20,374 nt of DNA from a virus, in IMG/VR virus record IMGVR_UViG_3300027733_000252, positions 1-20,374 of that record. One strand, given 5' to 3'. Numbering within the stretch: the first letter of the stretch is position 1; every line of letters starts with the position of its first letter. The translations under genes were made by a program, and so were the position numbers. A model generated the notes under the pieces. The model saw nothing but the letters and a program-made list of their open reading frames with translations, was not told where the DNA came from and made no database searches. This document shows positions 6,102 to 15,648 of the stretch, piece by piece.

Positions 6102-6133
6102 AGCCCCGGCTCGCAAGGTCGGGGCTTTTTTTT
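6102..6133 (+). terminator. Rho-independent terminator, rightward
   Basis: AGCCCCGGC and GTCGGGGCT form a 9-bp stem (one G-T pair) with a 7-base loop, followed at once by eight T residues. This is a classic intrinsic terminator on the plus strand only; on the minus strand the stem is followed by A/G-rich sequence. It ends 16 bases before the early operator and promoter, so it would insulate that promoter from transcription arriving from the left. Confidence 0.85.
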
Positions 6134-6149: not shown

Positions 6150-6165
6150 TGTCTAACGTTAGACA
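6150..6165. promoter_or_regulatory. 16-bp perfect palindrome, candidate operator O1
   Basis: TGTCTAAC-GTTAGACA is perfectly symmetric. Its right half supplies the -35 box of the promoter at 6160-6189, so a bound protein would block or contact RNA polymerase. A site with the same half-sites and length, differing at two central bases, occurs at 12590-12605 in another promoter. Confidence 0.65.
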
Positions 6166-12456: not shown

Positions 12457-12545
12457 TGACCCCATGGGAAAAGTTTGAAAGGGTAATACTTTTGTTAGCG
12501 GTCATTGTCCTTGGCCTTGACCTCATGTACTGGCGTCCCTTCTGA
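12453..12545 (+). CDS. 30-residue single-pass membrane peptide
   Basis: ATGATG at 12453 overlaps the upstream stop, with GGAGGGG about 8 bases before. The 30-residue product starts MMTPWEKFER, then has one hydrophobic helix (about 11-24, VILLLAVIVLGLDL) and ends MYWRPF. The overlap, ribosome binding site and membrane pattern argue that it is expressed, though 30 codons could also arise by chance. It would sit in the inner membrane as a one-helix peptide. Confidence 0.45.
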   Translation: MMTPWEKFERVILLLAVIVLGLDLMYWRPF

Positions 12546-12568
12546 CTACTATCAACAACCTCTTTTCT

Positions 12569-12582
12569 AGGGGAATTCCCCT
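12569..12582. promoter_or_regulatory. 14-bp perfect palindrome upstream of P3
   Basis: AGGGGAATTCCCCT is perfectly symmetric and its last base is the first base of the -35 box TTGACT. This is the position expected for an activator or a second operator. It could also act as a short terminator stem for the upstream operon, but no T-run follows. Confidence 0.5.
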
Positions 12583-12611
12583 TGACTTCTGTCTAAGCCT
12601 AGACAAATAAT
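12582..12611 (+). promoter_or_regulatory. Sigma70-type promoter P3
   Basis: TTGACT (5 of 6) and AATAAT (5 of 6) are spaced by 18 bases in the 87-base gap before the 73-aa gene. Transcription would start near 12618, only about 15 bases before the ATG, so the mRNA leader is very short but still includes AAGGAG. The spacer is filled by the 16-bp inverted repeat. Confidence 0.65.
12590..12605. promoter_or_regulatory. 16-bp inverted repeat, candidate operator O2
   Basis: TGTCTAAG-CCTAGACA shares half-sites TGTCTA/TAGACA and length with the palindrome at 6150-6165. One base pair breaks its symmetry. It lies between the -35 and -10 boxes of P3, a classic repressor position. Confidence 0.6.
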
Positions 12612-12632: not shown

Positions 12633-12854
12633 ATGCAAAAGCACACACCCTACGACACAGGGAAGGTCAAAATTGGCCTGACCTATACACCACCGCCACC
12701 CCCTACTACGCCTGAGTCCGATTGGATACAGGGCGTTTTGCTTGAGGATAGGCGGGGCATGTCCGAGCTTGCGCTCGTGACAATTCAATCCCTCGGGCTT
12801 ATAGCCTTCATCATCATTGGCATTCTTTTACTAGGAGGAAACCCAAATGCCTGA
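12633..12854 (+). CDS. Tail-anchored membrane protein with proline-rich head
   Basis: A 73-residue protein with AAGGAG eight bases before ATG, the first gene behind promoter P3. The N-terminal half is soluble and contains YTPPPPPTTPE at about 18-28. Residues about 50-68 form one hydrophobic helix (SLGLIAFIIIGILLLGG) followed by a short tail. This is a C-terminal anchor with a proline-rich cytoplasmic head that could recruit another protein to the membrane. I recall similar small proteins in related phages but no function. It overlaps the next gene by 8 bases. Confidence 0.65.
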   Translation: MQKHTPYDTGKVKIGLTYTPPPPPTTPESDWIQGVLLEDRRGMSELALVTIQSLGLIAFIIIGILLLGGNPNA

Positions 12855-13449
12855 CATCCAAACTGCGCTTAACAACGCACTTAACAACCAACTTAGAAAC
12901 ACAATCAACGACTGGGAGAAAGACGATATGCAAACCACACAAGTTAAACCACAAGGCGCTAACTACGGACGAGGCACTAAAGCCTTTAGCGTCACCAACA
13001 ACGTGACCCGTGCCACCTTTGACTTTGTCAAGAAGAACCCTAACCTTACCTCGCCTGAGATATGCGCATCCATGGAACGCATAGGGTACAAAGCAAGTTC
13101 AGTGTCCTCATTGATCGCACAGTTCGCTGTGCAGGGCTTGGCTGAGAGAGACGATAGGGGTAGGTACATCACCATCGTGGACGAGTACAGCCCCTTGAAA
13201 GCCAAAAAGAAAACCCTCAAGATCGTGCCCAAGCCTGTTGAAGAACGCGTCAAGCGCAAGTACGAGAAAAGATCAGAAGGCATCGCCGCGCTACACACCG
13301 ATACTACTGACACCTCGCTCACCTTACCGCAACCCAAACGCTTCGTGACCCTTGTGCGTAGCAAGACGCCTGACGACATCCTCAAGGACATGACTGTGTT
13401 CCAAGCGCGTGAGTTGTATGACTACCTCAAGAAAATGTTTGGAGGCTGA
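12847..13449 (+). CDS. Winged-helix DNA-binding protein
   Basis: This 200-residue basic protein has TAGGAGG before ATG. Residues about 50-112 read as a winged helix: a first helix TRATFDFVKKNP, LTSPEICASMERIG, then a recognition-helix candidate KASSVSSLIAQFAVQG, then a wing RDDRGRYI. A Lys/Arg-rich linker (about 115-150) follows, and the C-terminus has a conserved-looking segment MTVFQARELYDYLKKMFGG. It probably binds DNA as a regulator or replication accessory. Its place as the second gene behind P3 and its operators makes it a candidate autoregulator, which is inference. Confidence 0.7.
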   Translation: MPDIQTALNNALNNQLRNTINDWEKDDMQTTQVKPQGANYGRGTKAFSVTNNVTRATFDFVKKNPNLTSPEICASMERIGYKASSVSSLIAQFAVQGLAERDDRGRYITIVDEYSPLKAKKKTLKIVPKPVEERVKRKYEKRSEGIAALHTDTTDTSLTLPQPKRFVTLVRSKTPDDILKDMTVFQARELYDYLKKMFGG

Positions 13450-13450
13450 C

Positions 13451-13600
13451 ATGACTGACGAAGAAAAGAAACGCATGGACTACCTTGAGCGCGTAGAGAA
13501 AGCAGCAAAGGATGTGGTGGGTGCGTTTACCAACGGCATCGACTACGACAACTGGGACAAAGCCCTTGACAGGCTTGAAGCCACACTCAAGGAGAGATGA
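13451..13600 (+). CDS. 49-residue helical protein, function unknown
   Basis: The frame is open from 13409, but ATG at 13451 is preceded by GGAGG within the last codons of the upstream gene and is the better start. The 49-residue product (MTDEEKKRMDYLERVEKAA) is highly charged and helical with a short turn around NGIDYDNW. Its stop overlaps the next ATG. Function is unknown; it may be a small partner of one of its two DNA-binding neighbours. Confidence 0.6.
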   Translation: MTDEEKKRMDYLERVEKAAKDVVGAFTNGIDYDNWDKALDRLEATLKER

Positions 13601-14394
13601 TGTACGAAGACGAACCAGTCAACGAGTACCGCATCAAGGTCACAGTTAGAAACAATCTGATCTTGAATGCGATTGAGAACGCGGGGTATAAAAGCGTGTC
13701 AGAGTTTTGTCGTGCGGCGGGTCTGCCTAAAACTGCGCTGACAGAACTGATAGCCATGCGTAAACCTCCGATCAATCAAAGCGGGGAGTTCAGCGATAAC
13801 GCCAAAGCACTCATGGAGGAGTTGTGCGCACTGCCAACCGATCTGTGGACAACGGAGCAACTAACGCTGAAACTTAAACGCAACAGCGCACAACGGGATG
13901 TTAGCTCCGAAGGTATGCGTGCCGCCCTTGGCATGCACGCTGAAGAACTGCTTGAGTTGATGAAGCCTGATGATCCTGACGAAGCTGTGCTCAAGCATGA
14001 GATGGTGAGCGTTGTGGAGGAACAACTGGAGTCGCTCTCCCCGCGTGCGGCTTTGGTACTGCGTATGCGCTTTGGTATAGGTTGTGAGGAGCATACGTTT
14101 GAGGAGATCGGAGATAAGTTTGATTTAACAAAAGAACGTGTCCGGCAGATCGAGGCTAAGGCTTTACGTCACTTAAAGCACCCATCAAGGTCTGATGAGT
14201 TGCGTCAGCTATTACCTACGTATGAAAGATCTCCCGAGCAAAAAGAAAAAGCAAAACTGCCTGCGTGTGAGAATGTGTACCACCAGTTCTACACGAACCC
14301 AAACGGGGTAAGTGTCTGCGCTCACTGCGGTGTTGGGGAAGAACGTTTTAACAACATCAAAGAGTATGCACATCTTATGAAGGAGACACCATGA
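13597..14394 (+). CDS. HTH / sigma70 region 4 / zinc-motif transcription protein
   Basis: The 265-residue protein has three parts. Residues about 18-60 look like a Cro-type HTH (NLILNAIENAGY, VSEFCRAAGL, KTALTELIAMRKPP). Residues about 134-207 are a near-textbook sigma70 region 4: LSPRAALVLRMRFGIG, TFEEIGDKFDLTKERVRQIE, then ALRHLKHPSRSDELRQLL, very like the end of RpoD. Residues about 224-246 hold Cys224 and CAHC (241-244), a possible zinc site with a nearby His229. Region 2, which binds the -10 box and the RNA polymerase clamp, is absent. Region 4 normally binds the -35 box and the beta flap, so the protein may compete with host sigma, redirect polymerase, or act as an activator. It lies in the P3 operon. 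AAGGAG lies immediately before the start, an unusually short spacing; a later start is possible. Confidence 0.85.
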   Translation: MMYEDEPVNEYRIKVTVRNNLILNAIENAGYKSVSEFCRAAGLPKTALTELIAMRKPPINQSGEFSDNAKALMEELCALPTDLWTTEQLTLKLKRNSAQRDVSSEGMRAALGMHAEELLELMKPDDPDEAVLKHEMVSVVEEQLESLSPRAALVLRMRFGIGCEEHTFEEIGDKFDLTKERVRQIEAKALRHLKHPSRSDELRQLLPTYERSPEQKEKAKLPACENVYHQFYTNPNGVSVCAHCGVGEERFNNIKEYAHLMKETP

Positions 14395-14911: not shown

Positions 14912-15080
14912 CAGACAGTGGATTATGTTTAATGAATTGGGCGGAGCCGACTGGCTACGCAAGCTTGTCGAGAAGAAAGCACCAATGCCCAAGAAGTATT
15001 ACGACAACGAGTTGGCGCGTATCAGCAACCCCGCTGACGCCACATTTTTAAAACAAAGAAAAGGAGAAATAAATGATTGA
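14856..15080 (+). CDS. Small conserved phage protein, possible DNA binder
   Basis: I start the gene at ATG 14856 (MPRPKPPEPLIGRQVRMSD), preceded by AGGAACA, although the frame opens at 14796. The 74-residue product has a Pro/Arg-rich lead, then VRMSDRQWIMFNELGGADWLRKLVEKK. A short strand followed by two helices recalls ribbon-helix-helix proteins, but this is only a suggestion. Similar proteins are familiar to me from phages and genomes of freshwater betaproteobacteria. It overlaps genes on both sides. Confidence 0.65.
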   Translation: MPRPKPPEPLIGRQVRMSDRQWIMFNELGGADWLRKLVEKKAPMPKKYYDNELARISNPADATFLKQRKGEIND

Positions 15081-15648
15081 TCTTGCAACAGAAACCGATG
15101 GCACAGAGCCAACTTATGTGAGCCTCTACGAAGGCGCTACGCTTGAGCAAGCTGGCCATATATGGAACAGCGTCATCAAAAGCGATGGTGGCCATTGCCC
15201 TGTGTGCGATAGGTGGGGTAAGCTGTACAGGCGCGGTATCAGTGCGTCTATGGCGAGGCAGTTAATATGGTTGTGCTTACAAGACCCGCGTGAGGACGGC
15301 TGGATCGACGTACAACGCACCGCACCCGATTGGTTGCTTCGCTCCCCGCAGATAGGTACGTTGCGGCACTGGAGCATGGTAATAGATGCACCAGTCAGCG
15401 GAGTTAAGAGTCGTAGCGCGGGGCTGTGGAAGCCGACAGCCATTGGCTTGGAGTTTGCGTATCAACGCATCTCCGTGCCCAAGTACAAGTACATCTACAA
15501 CGACACTGTGTTTGATACCGAAGGCTCTGACGTCACCATACTTGACTGTATTGGTGAACACTTTGACTACAACGAACTTATGAATGCGAACTATTATGGC
15601 GAATACACCGGAATGGAAAGTGAAGAAGGCGGTGAGGGTTCTTCTTGA
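15073..15648 (+). CDS. Conserved phage protein with zinc-knuckle-like motif
   Basis: The 191-residue protein starts at ATG 15073 with AAAGGAG upstream, overlapping the previous gene by 8 bases. It has a CPVC pair near 42-45 followed by DRWGKLYRRGISASMARQL, then a segment with RTAPDWLLRSPQIGTLRHW and a C-terminal part with GLWKPTAIGLEFAYQRISVPK. The middle resembles a winged-helix-like arrangement, and the Cys pair could bind metal together with other ligands. I recall this protein type next to replication nucleases in many phages, with no assigned role. The last 22 codons overlap the VRR-NUC gene. Confidence 0.65.
   Translation: MIDLATETDGTEPTYVSLYEGATLEQAGHIWNSVIKSDGGHCPVCDRWGKLYRRGISASMARQLIWLCLQDPREDGWIDVQRTAPDWLLRSPQIGTLRHWSMVIDAPVSGVKSRSAGLWKPTAIGLEFAYQRISVPKYKYIYNDTVFDTEGSDVTILDCIGEHFDYNELMNANYYGEYTGMESEEGGEGSS

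Follow-up and report, generated by a model that had tools for sequence, protein, structure and literature searches.

What reads the two palindromes at promoter P3 of this phage, and how far does its control extend beyond P3? We examined a window of 20,374 nucleotides, the whole stretch of DNA analysed (positions 1 to 20,374 of IMG/VR virus record IMGVR_UViG_3300027733_000252). The original prediction placed both palindromes at P3, related one of them to a palindrome at a second promoter, P1, and nominated two proteins of the operon behind P3, a winged-helix (WH) protein and an HTH/sigma-region-4 protein, as possible regulators of both promoters. As judged from comparative sequence analysis, the 16-bp inverted repeat in the P3 spacer is real, strongly conserved and probably an operator, the WH protein is its well-supported candidate reader, and the circuit that they would form belongs to an already known kind.

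Architecture of P3 in the window

The predicted layout was recovered in full (Table 1). P3 reads TTGACT-N18-AATAAT at 12582-12611, with a perfect 14-bp palindrome at its -35 and a 16-bp inverted repeat filling its spacer, and the outer half-sites of that repeat recur at P1, 6.44 kb away where about 6.4 kb had been claimed. The core of the 14-bp palindrome spans 12570-12581, and the palindrome's final T, at 12582, doubles as the first T of the -35 hexamer. In the 16-bp repeat, which adjoins the invariant -10, each outer arm is 6 bp long.

Table 1. Positions of promoter elements, palindromes and genes in the window
Feature	Position	Strand	Remarks
P1 operator (proposed), TGTCTAACGTTAGACA	6150..6165	.	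Half-sites as at P3
P1 core promoter, TAGACA-N17-TTATAA	6160..6188	+	Kept in relatives (TTGACA-N17-TTATAA in L001); operator overlaps -35
Perfect 14-bp palindrome, AGGGGAATTCCCCT	12569..12582	.	Centre ~-42.5; putative activator site, subclade-specific
P3 -35 hexamer, TTGACT	12582..12587	+	Hexamer scan; TTGACTT invariant in group A alignment
16-bp inverted repeat, TGTCTAAGCCTAGACA, proposed P3 operator	12590..12605	.	Occupies P3 spacer, ~-28 to -13
P3 -10 hexamer, AATAAT	12606..12611	+	Promoter scan and group A alignment; spacer to -35 of 18 nt
Predicted P3 transcription start	12618	+	Placed by distance from the -10; may be off by 1-2 bases
First P3-operon gene, 73-aa protein	12633..12854	+	Hydrophobic C-terminal stretch; 18/18 group A and 17/20 group B genomes
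WH protein, 200 aa	12847..13449	+	Second in P3 operon; proposed binder of TGTCHA-N4-TDGACA
265-aa protein	13597..14394	+	HTH-like N-terminus, RpoD-like sigma region 4, Cys-rich C-terminus; accessory
Gene 15073, 191-aa protein with CPVC motif	15073-15648		phrog_2693

Promoter-like sites around P3 are not enriched (3 found against 7.3 expected from shuffles), so the identification of P3 as a promoter draws on conservation and position. Likewise, the bare 12-bp palindrome occurs once in the window against 0.45 expected with up to two mismatches, and its support therefore comes from conservation. The half-site motif TGTCHA-N4-TDGACA behaves differently: with exact half-sites it occurs twice in the 20.4-kb window, at P1 and P3, against 0.00 expected. 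At up to three mismatches it shows no enrichment (9 seen, 7.1 expected), which makes only the exact form informative. P1 is missing from the consensus promoter scan because the scan demands T as the last base of the -10.

Conservation of the two palindromes

A search of GenBank found no near-identical DNA from a close phage, but many relatives are present in IMG/VR. The palindromes could have proved to be missing from close relatives, and an alignment of 18 group A loci gave no such refutation. All 16 positions of the spacer repeat and all 6 of the P3 -10 are invariant, as are 11 of the 14 positions of the palindrome window, compared with 6 of 117 in the upstream gene. The stretch at 12457-12568 is fairly conserved too (52/88 and 18/24 positions invariant), indicating that the entire P3 promoter region is constrained. 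Within it, ACTACTATCAACAAC at 12544-12558, upstream of the 14-bp palindrome, shows no variation across group A and matched no named element.

Their distribution sets the two P3 palindromes apart: these phages generally have the 16-bp repeat, and keep it even where the sequence upstream of it is entirely different, whereas GGGGAATTCCCC is limited to one subclade and to P3. Seven loci (L003, L012, L016, L018, L031, L034 and L056) carry the GGGGAA palindrome twice, the additional copy lying 19-20 bp upstream; in most of them the arms of the proximal copy are intact but separated by one added central base. Scanning 2.9 million viral contigs for the full P3 architecture TTGACNNNTGTCNANNNNTNGACAAATAAT, a pattern of 21 specified bases, returned 115 stretches. 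The pattern GGGGAANTTCCCCTTGAC, for which a few chance matches are expected, was found in four further contigs (L193-L196). None of the papers searched contains the operator sequences, and a keyword search was likewise empty; the matches to GGGGAATTCCCC were all in unrelated texts, for instance papers on NF-kappaB sites and on primers.

A proposed shared operator at P1, P3 and P4

Relatives carry up to three sites of the dyad, at P1, at P3 and at a further promoter, P4, that lies outside the window. In group A, some 8-10 kb separate the WH gene from P4 further downstream, and the gene behind P4 matches a PHROG annotated as "minor head protein". The dyad also occurs, in clade-specific variants, in relatives from groups B and C. 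Across sixteen long loci of relatives we counted 33 sites in 317 kb, against 0.15 expected under a Markov model. The P1 sites are the more variable across relatives, with AGTC in several. In group C, no recognisable P1 site was found; there the dyad stands about 3.5-4.3 kb upstream of the WH gene, at the head of an operon that contains it, and again at P4.

At each promoter the dyad overlaps core elements, yet never in the same place: it overlies the -35 at P1, fills the P3 spacer and spans -10/+1 at P4. These differing positions suit a repressor better than an activator, as steric exclusion can explain all three and one fixed activating geometry cannot. The arrangement also has the other marks of an early-promoter autorepressor circuit, with the dyad present at a second early promoter as well as at the one in front of the candidate regulator, and the candidate gene located inside the controlled operon.

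The WH gene accompanies the proposed operator

The WH gene is present in every genome compared (18/18 in group A, 20/20 in group B and 9/9 in group C), and in the distant group C its product is 40-49% identical. A WH homologue lies within 3 kb after 105 of the 110 P3-architecture sites checked; for the remaining five the contig supplies no more than 659 nt beyond the site. In contrast, the gene for the sigma-region-4 protein (6/18, 1/20 and 0/9 genomes of groups A, B and C) follows only a few of the P3-architecture sites. At P3, the subtype of the operator follows that of the WH protein, a match that fits co-evolution but is confounded by ancestry, and the linkage between operator and WH gene is itself partly explained by shared ancestry.

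Residues 53-109 of the WH protein are predicted to form a winged helix, with low to moderate model confidence (pLDDT ~75-84 in the wHTH, 59 overall). Its nearest folds are IclR/MarR regulators, with Foldseek probability near 1 but weak E-values (best 0.015). The C-terminus, at about 13390-13446 of the window, carries a nearly invariant MxxxQARELYDxLKxMFGG that ends in Gly-Gly, in proteins otherwise ~40-50% identical. Among GenBank phages, the only match to the protein was weak (MW202879). The phage's terminase resembles those of HTVC023P, HTVC027P and DSL-LC04, but the early regions of those phages look different.

A model for the P3 circuit

We consider it likely that the WH protein is an autorepressor of P3 that also shuts P1 and P4. 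It would bind TGTCHA-N4-TDGACA, probably as a dimer on two half-sites, and would thereby exclude RNA polymerase from the spacer region at P3, from the -35 at P1 and from the segment across -10/+1 at P4. As the protein accumulated, transcription from P1, P3 and P4 would fall, giving negative autoregulation together with cross-control, Cro-like in function. We infer this binding, dimerisation, repression and timing, and the activator considered below, from the observed sites, their conservation and positions and their linkage to the WH gene. Of the autoregulation and cross-control first suggested for the P3-operon proteins, then, the part assigned to the WH protein gains support, since the 16-bp site is kept at P3, at P1 and at a third promoter and always travels with the WH gene; the part assigned to the HTH/sigma-region-4 protein does not.

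The 14-bp palindrome may have a different role. Class II and class I activators bind at about -42.5 and about -62, respectively. In the window's subclade, GGGGAA(N)TTCCCC occurs at one or two sites, at about -42.5 and, where there is a second, about -62, positions that suggest activation of P3 by some factor and, by analogy, a class II-like activator site. A host factor could read this palindrome. In the window's subclade only, a factor bound at GGGGAA(N)TTCCCC would activate P3 first, and the repressor would then close it.

Other readings of the palindromes

The WH protein could owe its association with the 16-bp repeat to a shared operon alone, the true reader being either a regulator of the host or some other phage protein of universal occurrence. 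Several non-HTH genes are about as universal as the WH gene (those for the VRR nuclease and the DNA polymerase, and gene 15888), and we regard this explanation as rather unlikely. Of the genes compared, only the WH gene is universal and also encodes a predicted DNA-binding fold, and the half-sites vary by clade together with WH subtype, unlike the site of a single host factor. It is improbable that the spacer repeat is instead an activator site at which the WH protein remodels a long spacer in the manner of MerR. A dyad that fills an over-long 18-bp spacer does have the MerR geometry, and AATAAT is a weak -10; but such a mechanism cannot work at P1, where the dyad lies over the -35, or at P4, where it lies across -10/+1. 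Some group B members, moreover, combine a TATAAT -10 with the same dyad, and the nearest folds of the WH protein are IclR/MarR.

The XRE-like/sigma-region-4 protein had seemed a natural reader of one or both palindromes, redirecting RNA polymerase, as it is encoded in the P3 operon and joins a strong RpoD-like region 4 to an N-terminus resembling an HTH. Its distribution largely refutes that role, which we now hold to be very improbable: it is missing from 12/18 group A, 19/20 group B and 9/9 group C genomes, from most genomes with the 16-bp repeat and from many with GGGGAATTCCCC, and the L013, L021 and L049 contigs lack it while keeping both the P3 operator and GGGGAATTCCCC. We give still less credence to the idea that the palindromes serve as RNA or structural elements (a terminator or a processing hairpin, for instance) in read-through transcripts from P1. 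GGGGAATTCCCC scored as a weak terminator-like stem, and where it is duplicated the two copies could form a hairpin; against this, no T-run follows the palindromes, there is no Rfam match, and the 16-bp repeat, with its 6-bp outer arms abutting an invariant -10, never varies in group A and so offers no compensatory change.

In the sigma-region-4 protein, region 4 was matched strongly (Sigma70_r4, 1e-16; RpoD chains, 8e-26), while the searches gave no match to sigma region 2, which recognises the -10. Its XRE/HTH-like N-terminus is accompanied by conserved cysteines (C224, C241xxC244) and a patchy presence, and it could act as a redirector of RNA polymerase.

Relation to known regulatory systems

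In lambdoid phages, two or three early promoters carry dyads, the Cro/CI operators (OR/OL), to which a small HTH protein binds. The operator described here has a similar dyad length and site-specific centres, and its candidate reader is likewise encoded in the controlled operon. Unlike the Cro/CI system, the proposed reader has a winged-helix rather than a lambda-repressor fold, the operators are single rather than in triplets, and no relative was found in sequenced bacterial genomes. The latter result comes from one scan of GTDB genomes for prophages, where a CI-like lysogeny repressor would be expected to occur. The predicted winged-helix fold (weak Foldseek E-values notwithstanding) and a palindromic operator overlapping its own promoter are also features of MarR/IclR-type autorepressors. 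However, the WH protein scores 17.1 bits against Pfam MarR_2, under the gathering cut-off of 27 bits and hence outside that family, and it carries the extra conserved C-terminal module.

An uncultured but widely sampled phage lineage thereby gains a concrete, testable transcriptional circuit comprising P1, P3 and P4, with a candidate regulator named by no family library and a promoter architecture that could be read from metagenomic conservation alone.

Dispersed palindromes and the region upstream of P1

A further class of palindrome, GGGTCA-N3-TGACCC, is scattered along the P1 operon, with five copies in the window (6342, 6876, 7151, 8363 and 8655), in the P1 leader and mostly just past stop codons. 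Long group A relatives examined have 4-6 copies, and four group B and C loci checked have none. Other subclades have classes of their own (GCGGACA, GTGGAGA, GTGGTCA, GGGGAAC, GGGGAAA, GGGGAC, GGGGAGA, GATTCAG and GCGGAAC, among others), each with 3-7 copies whose arms are identical within one genome. Of 119 loci that are 9 kb or longer, 69 have such a class, against none in 40 shuffles. Among 100 copies examined, 83 fall outside ORFs having a ribosome-binding site, and copies often follow directly on a stop codon. These clade-specific palindromes, which may be a more surprising feature than the P3 operator, may be stoperator-like, nut-like or REP-like. Mycobacteriophage stoperators (PMC9283540, PMC6550527) are read by a monomeric repressor and are asymmetric sites (PMC9283540). 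The dispersed elements resemble stoperators in having several copies at gene junctions and a clade-specific sequence, but differ in being palindromic and in having no linked protein.

Gene 15073 co-occurs almost perfectly with GGGGAATTCCCC (it is in 17/18 group A, 0/20 group B and 0/9 group C genomes), and its product has no Pfam or PDB match. It is a lead for a clade-specific DNA-binding protein that might read GGGGAATTCCCC, though this co-occurrence is confounded with clade. More speculatively, and in our estimate doubtfully, regulation might have two layers, a common WH operator and fast-evolving subclade palindromes (those of the P1 operon and the P3 GGGGAA(N)TTCCCC) read by a clade-specific protein, perhaps that of gene 15073. 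Were this so, related phages would hold mutually exclusive regulatory specificities, as phage immunity types do.

Directly 5' of P1, at 6102-6133, lies a strong plus-strand terminator whose hairpin sequence changes among relatives while its structure seems to be kept. The genes to its left lie on the minus strand, and the element suggests a short plus-strand RNA or an insulator.
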